In this document: positions 55,686 to 63,530 of the stretch, piece by piece
Numbering within the stretch: the first letter of the stretch is position 1
How the letters are laid out: every line of letters begins with the position of its first letter
NCBI GenBank assembly: GCA_029881805.1
Contig: JAOULW010000001.1
Location: 310,001 to 374,000, forward strand
Source of the DNA: Candidatus Bathyarchaeota archaeon
GTDB lineage: Archaea > Thermoproteota > Bathyarchaeia > Bathyarchaeales > Bathycorpusculaceae
Direction of reading: 5' to 3'
DNA length: 64,000 nucleotides
Program-made: the position numbers and the translations under genes
Notes under the pieces: generated by a model
The model's input: the letters and a program-made list of their open reading frames with translations, nothing else
Told to the model about the DNA's origin: nothing
The model's database searches: none

Positions 55686-57380
55686 GTGAACAAATTGAAG
55701 AAATTGATCTTTACCGTCCTCACTGTTCTCTGTTTGTTATTGACATTCTTTTTGAGGGAATGGAACGTGCATGTAATTGCTAGTCCGTCAACACTGACTG
55801 TGGGTCAAGGTGCACAATTCACCACTATTCAAAGCGCTATCAACAATGCAAGCTCAGGAGACACAGTTCTTGTGCTTGACGGGATCTACTATGAAAATCT
55901 TGTCATCAATAAAAGCGTGTCATTGGTAGGAGAAAGCATAGAGTCCACAATTATTGACGGTAACAGGACGGATAACGTCATAAGCATAACGACTAGTAAC
56001 GTATATTTGACTGGCTTTACCATAAGAAGAAGCCGTTCGAGCGAGGGTTACAGTGGAATTCACGTAGAATATTCCAGTGGCAACATAATAACTAACAATA
56101 AAGTGATGGATAACTATCATGGAATTAGCGTTGTTTCTTCGAATGGTAATGTGGTCTCTGACAACACTATAGTTTCGAGTTCCCTAACAGCAATTCGTCT
56201 TTTCTCTTCTGATGATAATGTGGTGTATGGTAACATCATTTCTACTAGTTACGGCGGGATTCGTCTCTATTCCTCTATTCGTAATGAGATTTCTAACAAT
56301 ACTATATCAAGATGCTTACAAGGAATCATTCTTCTAGTCTCTAGAGTCAATGTGATTTCCGACAATTTTCTTTACAGCATTACAGGCGACGGGATATATT
56401 TTTCTTCTTCTGATGATAATGTGGTGTATGGTAACATCATTTCTGCTAGTTACAGCGGGATCTATCTTTGGGTTTCTGGTCGAAATGTGGTTTCTGGCAA
56501 CACAATAGCAAACAATTATCGGGGAATTGCGCTTGAACTTAGTGGAAACAACTCCATTTACCATAATAACCTTGGCGAGAACTACTTTAACAATACAGAA
56601 GTGAAAGGTGATCTTGCGAATTTTTGGGATTATAATGGTGAAGGTAACTATTGGAGTGATTACGTAGTACAAGATTCAAACGAAGATGGAATAGGAGACA
56701 GTCCTTACATTATAAACGTTAATAACCGCGACAACAATCCTCTAATGGGATTGTTCTCTGACTTTCACGTTGCTTTTAAAAATAAAATCTACAGTGCTAC
56801 TGTTGTTTCCAATTCATCAGTCTTTGGGGTATCATTTGAAATCGGATCTGAAACGGGGAACAAAATAATGCGTTTAGATGCCAGAGGGGCGGATGGAACC
56901 GTTGGTTTCTGCAGAATTACCATTCCCACAGTGCTGATGAACTATCCATATTTTCTACTGATTGGCAGTGATATGATTTTCCCATCATTGATTGGGAATT
57001 CAAACGAGACACAAGCTTGTCTGTACTTTACGTACCAACATAATACTCACAATATCTCGATAGTTTCATCTGAAACATGGCGTCTCTACAGCGAATTGCT
57101 CGACAGCTACCTCAAACTGCAAACGGATTTCTATGACTTGAACATAACATACTATAATATGCTCAGCAGTATTCTCGCTAACTATAGCCTTCTCTTGGCC
57201 AACTATAGTCAACTTGAAGAAAGCTATCAAAACCTGAACAGCTCCTATCAAGAACACCTACTAGATTATTCTCAGCAAATAGAAAATCTCCGAAACCTGA
57301 TGTATATTTTTGCGGCAACAGCCGCAATCTTCGTAGCAAGCACAGTTTACCTTTCAAAGCGCGCGCACGCGCGGTCGTAG
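55686..57380 (+). CDS. NosD/CASH-type right-handed beta-helix surface protein
   Basis: 564 residues, exported. A signal peptide (about 1-32) is followed by PbH1 repeats (IQSAINNASSGDTVLVLDG, NVVSDNTIVSS, NEISNNTISRC and more). A second region carries DSNEDGIGDSPYIINVNNRDN, calcium-binding-like, as in NosD proteins. The C-terminus is a coiled-coil of NYSLLLANYSQLEESYQNL-type followed by a membrane segment (about 540-558). The last 10 bases, including the TAG stop, lie inside the tRNA-Gly gene. A 39-base block repeats exactly at 56205-56243 and 56406-56444. It may bind a surface glycan. Confidence 0.85.
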   Translation: MNKLKKLIFTVLTVLCLLLTFFLREWNVHVIASPSTLTVGQGAQFTTIQSAINNASSGDTVLVLDGIYYENLVINKSVSLVGESIESTIIDGNRTDNVISITTSNVYLTGFTIRRSRSSEGYSGIHVEYSSGNIITNNKVMDNYHGISVVSSNGNVVSDNTIVSSSLTAIRLFSSDDNVVYGNIISTSYGGIRLYSSIRNEISNNTISRCLQGIILLVSRVNVISDNFLYSITGDGIYFSSSDDNVVYGNIISASYSGIYLWVSGRNVVSGNTIANNYRGIALELSGNNSIYHNNLGENYFNNTEVKGDLANFWDYNGEGNYWSDYVVQDSNEDGIGDSPYIINVNNRDNNPLMGLFSDFHVAFKNKIYSATVVSNSSVFGVSFEIGSETGNKIMRLDARGADGTVGFCRITIPTVLMNYPYFLLIGSDMIFPSLIGNSNETQACLYFTYQHNTHNISIVSSETWRLYSELLDSYLKLQTDFYDLNITYYNMLSSILANYSLLLANYSQLEESYQNLNSSYQEHLLDYSQQIENLRNLMYIFAATAAIFVASTVYLSKRAHARS

Positions 57381-57447
57381 TCTAGCTTGGCTAGGACATC
57401 GGCCTCCCACGCCGACGACCCGGGTTCAAATCCCGGCGACCGCACCA
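57371..57447 (+). tRNA. tRNA-Gly (CCC)
   Basis: Acceptor GCGGTCG pairs with CGACCGC, the anticodon arm is TCGGC-CTCCCAC-GCCGA with CCC at 57406-57408, and the T arm is CCGGG-TTCAAAT-CCCGG. The discriminator is A and CCA is encoded. The first 10 bases overlap the end of the preceding gene. No intron. Confidence 0.92.
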
Positions 57448-57524: not shown

Positions 57525-60500
57525 TTAGCCTGTCCATCCGTATTCTAAGGCAGCTGCCAGTATGTCTTTTACGTCAATGAAAGCGTCGTTGTTGATGTCA
57601 AGGTTAGGATGGTATTTTGGATGTCCTGGGTAACTACCGTACGCTAGTGCTATAGCAAGTAGGTCTTTTATCTCAACGAAACGGTTGGGGTCTACGTCTC
57701 CTACGTGAACTATCATGACTGTGCCGTCGACATATAGATTGTCAGCGGTGTCTGTTTCGCCTGGAACTGGTGTTGCGTAAGCGCTCAGTGTGTAATTGTC
57801 ATATTCTGTAAGCCCTGACGTATTCCATGTGAACGGTACAATGGCGGTGCTTCCAGCTATCAATGGCACGACTTTTGAGCCGATTAGGTTAGTTGTGTTC
57901 CAAAATACGTCGAGTGTGAAAGTCTCGTCAACTGTGCCTTGGTTCTCTACTGTTACATTTATGTAGCAATTTTGACCGCCGTGGATTATTGTTGCTCCGT
58001 AGCACGCAATTAAATCAGTGACTGCTATGTCGTGAACAGCGAGTGGTGAAGTCACTACAGCGGCTCTTATGAAAGCGTGCATTGAAGGATCATAGCCCAA
58101 TGTTAGTGGGTATCCTACAAGCTCCCAAACTGGGATCATTCCGTATGGTGAAGGCGGTGGAGTCATCCATAGATTAACTGGGTAGCCATCGTGTGAAACA
58201 TACATTGTGTCATTGTGTACATCAGGCGTGTGGGGATATGGATGTGGCATTGGTGAACGTCCGAAGGTTGCTCCTTTTTCAAAAGCGTCTTGAATAGGGT
58301 CGCTGATGAGCAGTTCAAAGGTTGAAGAGTTCACTCCAGCGGAAGTTACGTAGTGACCGAATTCCAAGCTTGGATTGTCGTAAAGTGGCATCCATTCGCC
58401 TTGGCCCAAGTCTTGATAGAATTCTAGGAGGAGCACAACGTCTTGGCATCTTTCGATTTCGTACTCTATCCATTCGAATTCTGGAAACTCTGCGGAATGA
58501 ACCTCAAACAAGTCGTCTACACCCTGGTCTATCAGGTACTGGCTGATTCCGATTTCCATATCCGTCCAACGTGTTCCTGTATGTCCATCTAAACTTCGTA
58601 TGCCATCTGTGTCCATGTACCAAGCTAGGTTGACGACAAGCGGATCCACGTTCTTTACGTCATGGTCGTCCCAAACACCTGGATTGTAGGAGGTCACTAA
58701 ATCAAAACTGTCGCTTATTGTTGGTGGAGGCACCGGAGTAGGATTCATGATTGATTCGTACTCAGAGTCAAGCCACCATAGCGAATTGGAAACTGCCACT
58801 GGACCGCACCACGTGAAGATTCCTGGCGCTGGGCCCCACTTGTCTTGTATCTGATCGAAGTCTGGCATTCCGCTCGGCGCGTAGTCTGGATATGGAGGTT
58901 TAATGTACCATGGTTCAATTATTTCATAGGGTTCTGCGGTCACGTTCCATGGTGGAGGTCGTACAGTTGGAATCCCGGCGCCGACAAAGTCCACGTGGAA
59001 CCATCCGATGGTGGTTTGGTCTACATGAATGATGACGTCCGCCCATTCTGTTGGCCAGACTATTTTCCACCAAGAGCATGGTTCGGGAGTCCAGCCGACT
59101 GGGTCTATTACCTTGAACCAGTCGCATGGCTCTATGTCATCAATTTTCTTTTCTGCTGTTAGCATGTGCGTTATCGGTATTGGGCTTGGTCCAGGTTCTA
59201 CACTGTCTATGTGGAATAAGCCATCGCCTGTTGAATCGTCTACGTGGAACTCCCAACCCGTTGGCTCACCAGTGGTAGGATCTAGTATTTCCCACCATGA
59301 ACAGGGTGTCGGAGTAGTTGCGGGGTCATCGACTTTGAACCAGCTGCACTGCGTAATATCGTCAATTTTCTTTCTAACGGTAACAGTGTACGACGGTGGT
59401 ATGCGGATCACTATGTCTGGGGCTGTACCATCCACGTGGAACAAGGTCATTCCTTCAGTAACGTCTACGTGGAATTCTAAGCCTGTTGCTGCGCCATCAG
59501 CGTCCAGTATTTCCCACCACGTGCATGGCTCTGGCAGATAACCTTGTGGGTCAACAACTACGTACCAGTCGCAACGCGTAATGTTTTCGACTTTCTTTAT
59601 TGCCTGCAAGAAGGGAACCGGATATGGTTCAAACACGTAGATTCCAGAATGGCCATCGATTAGTACTTGGTCTATGTGGAATTCGCAGCTTTCGTTTGTC
59701 CAGTCTACGTGGAATTCTACGCCACTTGCTGCACCAGTGTAGGGATCTATTAATTCCCACCATGTGCAAGGTTCAGGATACCAGCCTGGCGGTTCTTCAA
59801 CAACGAAATAGTCGCATGATTCGATTTTAGGTATTTTCTTTCGCGCCCACATTTCAAACCATGGATATGGCAGTACAACTCCGGGTACGGAGTCACCGTA
59901 AAGTAGTACTTGGTCTATGTGGAATTCGCAGCTTTCGTTTGTCCAGTCTACGTGGAATTCGATACCAGTCAGTTCACTCGTTTCAGGGTCTATTAATTCC
60001 CACCATGTGCAAGGTTCAGGATACCAGCCACTGGGCCAATGAACCTCAAAGAATTGGCAAGGTGCGATGATATCGATCTTCTTTTTAGCTACAATAGGAT
60101 ACCAAGGATAAGGAATCGGACCGCCAGTCGGATTGTAGACTATGTCTACGTGGAATTCAGTTGGTCCTCCCTGGTCAAGGTGAAATTCAAGGCCGGTTCC
60201 TTTACCAGTGACGGGGTCGATTATCTCCCACCATGAACATGGATTGGGAATATAGCCTGGCGGCGATATTATCATTATCCTTTCGCATGCGTCAAGAATG
60301 CCATCAGGGGCTGCTGTCTCGATGAATTGTGCTGTGATGTTTGTTCCGATGAGCATTTCTTCACCAGACCAGAACTGCATCGCTGTTGGATCTCCAAACG
60401 TCATCGTTTCGTCTGTCGTGAAGTTGATTGTTTCTCCAGAAGTGAAAGTCATACTGCTTGGCGTTTGAGCATAAATTGCGTTGAATGAAAATATTGCTAG

Positions 60501-60566
60501 GGAACTCATAAGCAACAATGATATCGACAGCAAAGCAATTGCCTTAACACTATAGTTCTTTTTCAT
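57525..60566 (-). CDS. Secreted six-repeat cysteine peptidase-like protein with CARDB and dockerin
   Basis: 1013 residues: signal peptide (1-33); six repeats of 70-81 residues (94-550), each with Cys, PxPC[ST]WW, EFHVD-like and FHxD motifs; a papain-like/C39-like domain (about 570-835) with Cys587 in TWCGPVAVSN, His738 in FGHYVTS, Asp756 in LISDPIQD; a CARDB domain (about 845-945); and a dockerin (952-1012) with GDVDPNRFVEIKDLLAIA and LDINNDAFIDVKDILAAA. GGAGAAAGGGAG supports the ATG. The 57-base and 41-base exact repeats 243 bases apart show a recent duplication of repeats 2 and 3. It may be anchored to the cell surface by its dockerin, but no cohesin is seen here. Function unknown. Confidence 0.85.
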   Translation of the reverse strand: MKKNYSVKAIALLSISLLLMSSLAIFSFNAIYAQTPSSMTFTSGETINFTTDETMTFGDPTAMQFWSGEEMLIGTNITAQFIETAAPDGILDACERIMIISPPGYIPNPCSWWEIIDPVTGKGTGLEFHLDQGGPTEFHVDIVYNPTGGPIPYPWYPIVAKKKIDIIAPCQFFEVHWPSGWYPEPCTWWELIDPETSELTGIEFHVDWTNESCEFHIDQVLLYGDSVPGVVLPYPWFEMWARKKIPKIESCDYFVVEEPPGWYPEPCTWWELIDPYTGAASGVEFHVDWTNESCEFHIDQVLIDGHSGIYVFEPYPVPFLQAIKKVENITRCDWYVVVDPQGYLPEPCTWWEILDADGAATGLEFHVDVTEGMTLFHVDGTAPDIVIRIPPSYTVTVRKKIDDITQCSWFKVDDPATTPTPCSWWEILDPTTGEPTGWEFHVDDSTGDGLFHIDSVEPGPSPIPITHMLTAEKKIDDIEPCDWFKVIDPVGWTPEPCSWWKIVWPTEWADVIIHVDQTTIGWFHVDFVGAGIPTVRPPPWNVTAEPYEIIEPWYIKPPYPDYAPSGMPDFDQIQDKWGPAPGIFTWCGPVAVSNSLWWLDSEYESIMNPTPVPPPTISDSFDLVTSYNPGVWDDHDVKNVDPLVVNLAWYMDTDGIRSLDGHTGTRWTDMEIGISQYLIDQGVDDLFEVHSAEFPEFEWIEYEIERCQDVVLLLEFYQDLGQGEWMPLYDNPSLEFGHYVTSAGVNSSTFELLISDPIQDAFEKGATFGRSPMPHPYPHTPDVHNDTMYVSHDGYPVNLWMTPPPSPYGMIPVWELVGYPLTLGYDPSMHAFIRAAVVTSPLAVHDIAVTDLIACYGATIIHGGQNCYINVTVENQGTVDETFTLDVFWNTTNLIGSKVVPLIAGSTAIVPFTWNTSGLTEYDNYTLSAYATPVPGETDTADNLYVDGTVMIVHVGDVDPNRFVEIKDLLAIALAYGSYPGHPKYHPNLDINNDAFIDVKDILAAALEYGWTG
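58917..60287 (-). repeat. Six tandem Cys/Trp/His-Asp repeats in the 1013-residue protein
   Basis: Copies begin at residues 94, 170, 251, 332, 407 and 481 (first Cys of each). Every copy keeps a second Cys 15-16 residues on, followed by [ST]WW, then HVD or HLD, and FH[IV]D. Copies 2 and 3 have an extra Cys. Exact DNA repeats: 59661-59717 with 59904-59960, and 59746-59786 with 59989-60029. Confidence 0.9.
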
Positions 60567-60677: not shown

Positions 60678-63263
60678 TCATTTCAGTTTTCTAAGCATTG
60701 CTAACAAAAAGGTTGCGATTATCAAAATTGACAAGGAAATTACAGGCCAAAACTCGGAAACTATTACTATTTCATGCGTTGAATGCTGATACGTGAAGTA
60801 TATCCATCTGGAAAAACCGTCATCGTAGACACTATAGTTTGAATAAAGAATCTCCGTTAATCCATCGTCAATTAATACCGAGATTTCTGGTTCCATCAAA
60901 GTGTGTGGAACACAAATTCTACAGAATCCATATGTTTGATTGGGGCCATTGATCGTCAGTCTAATTATGTAACTATTGTTTTCATAAGCAAAGCTTAGTA
61001 TAGTTGAGTTACTGATAATCTTGACATTGTATATTCTTCCTTCGTAATCGACTCTGAATTTCTTGAAGATGCTCAAAAGAGGATAGCGGTCATGATTGTA
61101 ATCATCGATAGTTTGGGGAAGGTCGCCTAGGCCGTCTTTGTTAGCGTCAGAATTGGCGCCATTGCTCCAGTAGTTCCCTTCAAGACCATTGTCCCAAACA
61201 TTCGAGTATGAAGCGATCAGATCTGCTTGAATGGCGTTCTCAATCAGATTATTGTGAAAGATTTCATTAGAATGCGAGGAGTACAACCTGATTCCATAAA
61301 GACTGTATAGAATGGTGTTACCTTCGAGGTTGTTGTTGTCAGCTTCATAGAGGGAAATTCCTTTTTCACCATCACCGACAATGTTGCCTTCAACAATATT
61401 ATAGTCTGAATCTTGAAGGCAGATTCCAACCCAATTTTTCAAACAGACGTTATTGTACACAATATTGCCACTTGAATCCTGAAGATAAATACCATAACTG
61501 CTCTCAAGGGCGGTAACATTCTCTATCTTAGAGTTTGTTACATTAAAACAGAACACTCCATGGCCATTTCTTGTCAAATTCAGGTTTCGTACAGTTACGT
61601 TAATGCAGTTGATAAGATAGAGAACACCAATATTTGTTCGGTTTTCGAAGATTTCGTTTTCAACGCCTATCAAATATTGAACTGGTTTTCCATCAACGGT
61701 GTTGCCTACGTCTATGGTATTGTTAAAGTCTGAAAAGCTACCTCCAAAAACTCCAAGATTATACGAGTTATTCGATATCTCATTATGCCTCAGTACGTTG
61801 TTGCCCGAGTACCACAGTAGCATACCATTTTCACGATTTGAGGAAACGATGTTTCGCTCTACAATATTATTTTGTGAAAAGAAAAGATAAATTCCGATTC
61901 GATTGTTCGTTACAAAACAGTCGCTTAACTTGCACCCGGTGCTGTGATTTATAAAAACACCACAATCATCTCCGTAGGTTGGAAATAGCGATCCACTGTT
62001 CTGTATGGCAAATCCAACAACACTAACGTTGTCTGCGTTAACCGACAAAACCGTGCCTATTTCATCACTATCTATGATCGTTGTTGCTTGGTTTTCTCCC
62101 ATGAGTGTTAATGACTTGTAGACATTAACGTTTTCATGATAAACTCCTGAACCAACTCTTAAAGTATGTCCGTTTATTGTTTCAGAAGAATCAATTGCTG
62201 ACTGTATAGTGAGATAAGTCAAGTTTGTATCAAGATTGCGGATAGACCCATACGGATTCATCAGAGGATATCTATCTGCCTCAAAGTAATTCACAGCATA
62301 GTATGTGTCGCCTATTCCGTCTCTACCAGTTTCATTTTGAAAAGGTCCTTTGAAAAAGTCTGTGCCATTGTAATAGCTCCAATAGTTGCCTCCAGAAGGA
62401 TAGCCGTCATCCCAAATGTTGCCACCTGACTGAATGATGAACGGATTTGTATTATTGATGAAGCTGTTGTGAAAAATAGTGTTATCTTCTGGATATCCGT
62501 ATTGTAGGGGATATATCATGCCGCAGTAAGAATTGTTGTAAACTATGTTTGCAGTTATTCTATTGTTTGAAGATGAAGAGTACAAACGTATTCCATCGCT
62601 GTTTCGAGTAACATTGTTACCGACCACCGTGCAATTTGACGAATTTTCAAAGACTATACCTCCAATGTTTTGAGCTACAAAGTTGTTAGAAACTGTGCAG
62701 TTGGTTGATTCTGTTAGTCTAATTCCATAACCCATCTGGTTGACATGGTCTATTTTGTTTCCAGCGACAAAACAATTGCGTGAGCCATTTAGACGGATGT
62801 TATGGCATGTATGAAACAGAATATTGTTTTCGATTCTACAGTTATCAGCACCTTGAGTTTCGATGCCGCTTCGATCCCATCCCCATCCGCTGTTCTGGAT
62901 AGTGAACCCAACTATGGTAACGTTATCCGCTACCACATCCACAACAGTTCCGCCTAAACCACCATCAATAATTGTCGTTACAGCATCTTCTCCAACCAGT
63001 GAAATTGTTTTGTTCACAATTATCCGCTCAAAATACGTGTTAGACGGAACGTTTACAGTAGATCCATTTTCTGCTTCATTTATTGCTTCTTGTATCGAAA
63101 CAAAATTCTGCTGAATGTATTCTCCTCTTGAGTTCACAATCAGAAAACTCTGTGGAGAAATGGCATAAGAAGGAACAAATCGTAGACATGCAAGAATCAA
63201 GGCAGCAAACATCAGAATTCCAACGAGAGAACTTCTGAAACGAAAACCCTTGCCAAACATCAT
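60678..63263 (-). CDS. Large NosD/CASH-type beta-helix surface protein
   Basis: 861 residues from the ATG at 63263, where GGGGGAG is placed before MMFGKG. The frame runs on upstream to 63383 but without a good start. A signal peptide (about 12-33) leads into two right-handed beta-helix blocks (SIQEAINEAENGSTVNVPSN and later TIQSAIDSSETINGHTLRVG) with many NNxI turns. Calcium-type DANKDGLGDLPQTIDDYNHDR and a C-terminal membrane anchor (VISLSILIIATFLLAML) follow. It is a paralogue of the 564-residue protein, with the dockerin protein between. A surface role, perhaps in binding or cleaving glycans, is an inference. Confidence 0.85.
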   Translation of the reverse strand: MMFGKGFRFRSSLVGILMFAALILACLRFVPSYAISPQSFLIVNSRGEYIQQNFVSIQEAINEAENGSTVNVPSNTYFERIIVNKTISLVGEDAVTTIIDGGLGGTVVDVVADNVTIVGFTIQNSGWGWDRSGIETQGADNCRIENNILFHTCHNIRLNGSRNCFVAGNKIDHVNQMGYGIRLTESTNCTVSNNFVAQNIGGIVFENSSNCTVVGNNVTRNSDGIRLYSSSSNNRITANIVYNNSYCGMIYPLQYGYPEDNTIFHNSFINNTNPFIIQSGGNIWDDGYPSGGNYWSYYNGTDFFKGPFQNETGRDGIGDTYYAVNYFEADRYPLMNPYGSIRNLDTNLTYLTIQSAIDSSETINGHTLRVGSGVYHENVNVYKSLTLMGENQATTIIDSDEIGTVLSVNADNVSVVGFAIQNSGSLFPTYGDDCGVFINHSTGCKLSDCFVTNNRIGIYLFFSQNNIVERNIVSSNRENGMLLWYSGNNVLRHNEISNNSYNLGVFGGSFSDFNNTIDVGNTVDGKPVQYLIGVENEIFENRTNIGVLYLINCINVTVRNLNLTRNGHGVFCFNVTNSKIENVTALESSYGIYLQDSSGNIVYNNVCLKNWVGICLQDSDYNIVEGNIVGDGEKGISLYEADNNNLEGNTILYSLYGIRLYSSHSNEIFHNNLIENAIQADLIASYSNVWDNGLEGNYWSNGANSDANKDGLGDLPQTIDDYNHDRYPLLSIFKKFRVDYEGRIYNVKIISNSTILSFAYENNSYIIRLTINGPNQTYGFCRICVPHTLMEPEISVLIDDGLTEILYSNYSVYDDGFSRWIYFTYQHSTHEIVIVSEFWPVISLSILIIATFLLAMLRKLK

Positions 63264-63530
63264 GGTTCTCCCCCTTCCCCTATTATTTTCTACCAAGTAA
63301 TCTGTGCAAACCAAAATATTTACTTTGTTGACTAACATCTGACGGGCCGAGCGGGATTTGGCGCCCGTCCACAGTGGAGACATTTTTGGTTTTCTTATGC
63401 AAATTCCCTTTTTCTATGCGCAGATTAATTATGTTAAACACTCGCGTGCGCTCTGGGTGACTATCCTTCACATACTACTGTTCACAATCTCGATTTACGG
63501 CTTGATATTGGAAAAATGCGTGCACTTGGA

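Follow-up and report, generated by a model that had tools for sequence, protein, structure and literature searches.

A gene on the reverse strand of the window (the whole stretch of DNA analysed here, 64,000 nucleotides) encodes a protein in which six copies of a genuine new domain family, still to be named and here called the CWW repeat, precede a putative clan CA cysteine peptidase domain, a CARDB domain and a C-terminal dockerin-like domain (Table 1). We give about an even chance to the proposal that this protein is an extracellular cysteine peptidase that docks to cohesins and bears its array as an exchangeable targeting arm, tied to a beta-helix partner. According to this proposal, the enzyme would belong to clan CA (C39-like) and would work outside the cell within a cohesin/dockerin surface system of Bathyarchaeia; its dockerin, beyond a CARDB spacer, would attach it to cohesin proteins, and the six all-beta, probably disulfide-closed modules would form an N-terminal arm that positions it on a particular ligand, most likely one linked to the NosD-type beta-helix protein of the adjacent upstream gene. 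Such an arm would be replaceable, as elsewhere the peptidase backbone bears another six-unit array, or a cohesin, instead. New here are the CWW family, the exchange of arrays on a shared peptidase backbone, a dockerin inserted within the peptidase domain of relatives and the tight pairing of the array with one NosD type; the CARDB, dockerin and cohesin domains and the presence of a NosD neighbour are ordinary parts. Statements about the array draw on the five genomes that carry it.

Table 1. Features of the array-bearing gene and its upstream neighbour, in window positions.
Feature	Position	Strand	Remark
Whole gene, 1013 aa, ATG start	57525..60566	(-)	single open frame
Putative signal peptide, residues 1-33 (MKKNYSV..NAIYAQ)	60468..60566	(-)	from sequence: basic start, hydrophobic core
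Short N-terminal strand-like repeats (MTFTSGETINF..), residues 36-84	60315..60461	(-)	also in four other genomes
CWW/HxD repeat 1, residues 85-160	60087..60314	(-)	
CWW/HxD repeat 2, residues 161-241	59844..60086	(-)	third Cys 213
CWW/HxD repeat 3, residues 242-322	59601..59843	(-)	third Cys 294
CWW/HxD repeat 4, residues 323-397	59376..59600	(-)	modelled
CWW/HxD repeat 5, residues 398-471	59154..59375	(-)	modelled
CWW/HxD repeat 6, residues 472-544	58935..59153	(-)	
Pro-rich linker, residues 545-559	58890..58934	(-)	kinship pattern shifts near the linker (segment identities)
Papain/C39-like peptidase domain, residues 560-840 (Cys587, His738, Asp756)	58047..58889	(-)	
CARDB domain region, residues 841-950	57717..58046	(-)	PF07705, 25.8 bits (cut-off 22.7)
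C-terminal type I dockerin-like domain, residues 951-1013	57528..57716	(-)	both loops read from sequence
NosD/beta-helix gene, adjacent upstream, conserved partner	60678..63383	(-)	PF05048, 204.8 bits

The initial annotation had described six repeat copies, each with two Cys, one [ST]WW and two His-x-Asp motifs, and these positions were confirmed in the open reading frame, where each unit of ~75 residues contains one [ST]WW, two H[VIL]D motifs and a Cys pair (94/110, 170/186, 251/267, 332/348, 407/422 and 481/497), with a Cys-to-Cys period between units of 74-81 residues. The array is present in five Bathyarchaeia genomes from three families, namely the window's own (G000), G063 (public record DAOVMU010000001.1), G023 (JALHSY010000134.1), G091 and G121, and it has six copies in each except G023, which has five; in G121 the gene is divided over two contigs, with the break exactly at the peptide FHVDWTNESCEF. 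Across these genomes the repeat shows 53-63% mean identity, a Cys pair spacing of 14-16 residues and eight invariant columns, with both Cys, one Trp, both His, both Asp and a Phe retained in 28 of 28 repeats. The expectation that it belongs to no named family was borne out by searches of Pfam, NCBIfam and PDB sequences, all of which were without a match, and no further convincing carrier emerged when a profile was run against genomes from the class (257) and the phylum (about 400). Weak matches in G071 and G001 (E about 0.009), to a 58-residue frame or a fragment with a stop, were taken as chance.

When two tandem repeats (4-5) were modelled with AlphaFold2, the prediction was all-beta (mean pLDDT 83, pTM 0.64), with a strand beginning just after each Cys and with successive strands carrying the two His-x-Asp motifs, and it had no significant structural match in the PDB or BFVD. 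Given that both Cys are invariant in every repeat, it is plausible that the pair in each unit is disulfide-bonded, and a binding role for the repeats is likewise plausible.

The array is ancient, with only its short WTNESC hairpin homogenised. Copies 2 and 3 had been considered recent duplicates on the strength of exact DNA repeats of 57 and 41 nucleotides that they have in common. Those repeats are indeed present in the DNA, but the duplication is ruled out by comparison of copies across genomes and by the restriction of homogenisation to the hairpin: window copy 2 shares 84% identity with its counterpart in G063 but only 63% with its own neighbour, copy 3, and the best match of the window copies is mostly the same-numbered copy elsewhere, particularly for copies 2, 4, 5 and 6. 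The third Cys common to copies 2 and 3 lies within this hairpin, FHVDWTNESCEF, whose DNA is identical between copies within the window, G091 and G121 each, and differs at 3-8 of 36 nucleotides between them. Since the hairpin is identical within genomes and different between them, local homogenisation explains it better than recent duplication, and the pattern fits local gene conversion.

The region that follows the linker belongs to a strong-scoring family found in about 17 of 257 class genomes. The putative catalytic residues Cys587, His738 and Asp756 are at the places first claimed for them and are conserved in relatives, as Cys587, His738 and a Gln upstream of the Cys are invariant in all 16 aligned domains and the position of Asp756 is occupied by Asp in 15 of these and by Asn in one, which gives the clan CA catalytic series Gln/Cys/His/Asp(Asn) in the right order. 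An AlphaFold2 model of the domain (pTM 0.80, pLDDT 75) places the Cys at a helix start, the His at a strand start and the Asp after the next strand, and the leading Foldseek matches (TDE_0362, staphopains, C39-like 3erv, Alr0975 and cathepsin S) are all clan CA proteins, with a modest fold match (TM 0.3-0.5; best E 1.1e-3, prob 0.95). By sequence, Peptidase_C39_2 (PF13529) gave weak matches below the Pfam cut-off in 10 of 16 members (best E 0.002), with the G115 domain at 15.4 bits against a cut-off of 24; no Pfam family, PF13529 included, exceeded its cut-off for the window domain, and a PDB profile search with dockerin-free peptidase domains gave no useful match. The conserved catalytic residues, the clan CA structural matches and the weak C39_2 matches agree with the original description of this domain as cysteine-peptidase-like, and it looks built like a C39/papain enzyme with putative activity, though below the formal family cut-off.

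The likeness to Peptidase_C39_2 and other papain-like clan CA enzymes (staphopains, 3erv) consists of the Gln-Cys-His-Asp order, a CGP at the nucleophile, the model topology and the Foldseek matches, whereas the differences include a score short of the Pfam cut-off, additional segments rich in Trp or Pro, and the insertion of a dockerin into the domain of most Bathyarchaeia relatives. This second dockerin, an unusual arrangement within a peptidase fold, lies between the Cys and His parts, and is absent from the window protein, G115 and three cohesin-bearing members.

The remaining C-terminal assignments were also upheld, as the CARDB domain scored above its Pfam cut-off and the dockerin was recognised by eye from two calcium loops, DVDPNRFVEIKD and DINNDAFIDVKD, about 31 residues apart, and by weak matches to cellulosomal dockerins, including an alignment to dockerin 2y3n_B. 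This dockerin falls below the PF00404 cut-off and was not reported by the Pfam search; relatives G063 and G004 score above it. Elsewhere in this genome, about 18 further tails are up to 54% identical to the CARDB-dockerin tail. A search for cohesins, which the initial annotation had recommended, found two over the cut-off in G000 and cohesins in all seven relatives tested; three cohesin matches occur in one open reading frame in G115, G121 and G023, and only single-cohesin frames were seen in G000. Secreted proteins that carry cohesin, PKD, CARDB and dockerin domains are clustered at G000 C8 (L044:8716-15139), one of them a 712-residue protein with both cohesin-like and dockerin-like parts; this cluster is the likely docking hub of the genome.

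Comparable arrangements exist in other organisms. For example, RflaF_05439 of Ruminococcus flavefaciens (papain-like modules plus an X-dockerin) is likewise a dockerin-borne papain-like enzyme in a cohesin system, but it is bacterial and NlpC/P60-like, unlike the Bathyarchaeia protein, and the part of its description drawn on here makes no mention of a CWW array, an inserted dockerin or a NosD neighbour (PMC3573020). Similarly, non-cellulosomal cohesin/dockerin systems in ANME archaea, which are not known for cellulose use, also combine dockerins with multi-cohesin proteins, where the dockerin partners are ABC-transporter binding proteins and S-layer proteins and no peptidase with a CWW array is named (PMC9012536). 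In Bathyarchaeia, the replacement of the arm in relatives points to a surface system that may be cellulosome-like and that probably digests protein.

At least three kinds of N-terminal part occur in the peptidase family (the CWW array, a six-unit WHELYP array and a cohesin), and in G155 and G030 the backbone has no N-terminal addition, repeats or adjacent NosD gene. The units of the WHELYP array have the pattern WHELYP...DxCDxI...HVDxV, and alignment of its profile with that of the CWW repeat by hhalign (probability 18%, P 0.0013, 20 columns) is no more than suggestive of homology between the two arrays. Examples of this undescribed array (WHELYP ... PCDxI ... HVDxV) are found at L108:3234-6788, L113:3588-7040 and L115:1398-4427, with profile matches in 13 class genomes. 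An N-terminal cohesin and a beta-propeller accompany the peptidase in G002 and, by similarity, in G035, G006 and G034. The order of cohesin-like part, peptidase and beta-propeller was observed at L112:4123-6342, L117:3972-7097, L116:4170-6053 and L118:2205-5303; one of these proteins has an inserted dockerin, and from its domain content may both offer and seek docking.

The N-terminal arm is a replaceable cassette. A tree of the C39 domains rejected a single clade of CWW-bearing members (AU p 3e-90), so arms have been exchanged. The window C39 domain is 71% identical to that of WHELYP-bearing G103 and about 50-55% identical to those of CWW-bearing G063 and G091, whereas the window repeats are closest to the repeats of G063. 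In addition, a conserved locus by a cdc6-like gene has the CWW form in G121 and the WHELYP form in G115 and G127. A wider proposal, which we put forward only tentatively, is an interchangeable-arm, dockerin-bearing clan CA protease system in which lineages would swap N-terminal six-module arrays, every array having a partner of its own (one NosD beta-helix type in the case of the CWW array), and in which the inserted dockerin would allow docking to control activity.

An orthologous NosD-type beta-helix gene lies directly upstream of the array gene, on the same strand, in all five array genomes; its full-length copies are 52-62% identical, and it is split in two in G121. The initial annotation had noted neither this partner nor the inserted dockerin of relatives nor the exchange of arrays. 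This partner is one of the NosD/right-handed beta-helix proteins (PF05048, PF13229), separate from the peptidase protein, and its likeness to NosD does not imply a copper function. The same NosD type occurs in 7 of 257 class genomes, including all five CWW genomes (hypergeometric p 2e-9, a value that ignores shared ancestry and joint transfer), and the linkage could come from joint transfer rather than contact. The two remaining genomes with this NosD type are G109, whose contig stops 276 nucleotides past the NosD pair, at a locus occupied by the array in G121, and G029, whose NosD gene looks broken and is not followed by an array gene. This apparently broken G029 gene has a secreted beta-helix/dockerin protein upstream (L126:8192-10165). 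The distance matrices of the repeats and NosD proteins showed no significant correlation (n=5, Mantel p 0.3), so with these five genomes we claim synteny and co-occurrence only; the array may contact NosD directly. The NosD protein of G063 (L042:8271-10664) has a dockerin-like tail in place of the membrane anchor of its orthologues, and this tail ties both genes to the cohesin/dockerin system.

Other functions of the array can be considered. The array may be a passive stalk, in which proteolysis-resistant, disulfide-closed beta modules keep the peptidase at a distance from the cell and have no ligand themselves, a reading that we find possible but doubtful; it would accommodate the fixed number (5-6) and order of modules, the all-beta repeat model and the ability of relatives to work with another array or none, but the invariance of His-x-Asp and Trp in 28 of 28 copies exceeds the needs of a stalk, and the array strictly co-occurs with one NosD type. 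These invariant motifs might instead bind a metal ion, for which conservation of both motifs is the support and to which the repeat model adds that they are on consecutive strands and so could lie side by side. Metal binding nevertheless seems improbable, as the CWW repeat matches no metal protein by sequence or fold, the sister WHELYP array does not keep the His, and the YHVD/FHVD motifs could be purely structural.

Clan CA takes in transferases such as Alr0975 and processing C39 enzymes, and the presence of Alr0975 among the Foldseek matches raises the prospect that surface proteins (the repeats or NosD, for example) are the substrates of the C39-like domain, which would then be a maturation enzyme or transpeptidase and not a nutrient-degrading peptidase. 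The dedicated neighbour gene in CWW genomes is also in keeping with a maturation role, which we consider unlikely, since the family is found in G155 and G030 without repeats and without an adjacent NosD gene, so that a dedicated NosD substrate is not general.

As a docked peptidase with a targeting arm, this protein would bear on a known problem in the physiology of these archaea. Bathyarchaeia rank with the most abundant microbes of sediments, and protein is believed to be part of their diet (PMC12694404). Yet a study of 19 metagenome-assembled genomes (MAGs) from Polar Fox Lagoon detected no peptidase from the classes known to be exported, and raised the question of how protein degradation begins (PMC9534799). 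One of the CWW-bearing genomes is a MAG named PFL10 (JALHSY010000134.1), which is probably from that study. Because enzymes like this one fall short of the Pfam cut-off and could easily be missed by MEROPS-type BLAST, the CWW-armed putative peptidase is a concrete candidate for the unexplained first step of sediment protein degradation by Bathyarchaeia.

A viral or plasmid origin of the gene was rejected, as there was no match in viral contigs or plasmids. The possibility of an integrated island, raised by flanking tRNA genes (Gly, Cys), was dropped because in none of the four remaining CWW genomes does a tRNA adjoin the gene. The tRNA-Gly gene (window 57371-57447) overlaps the last 10 bases of a convergent NosD-type open reading frame (55686-57380).
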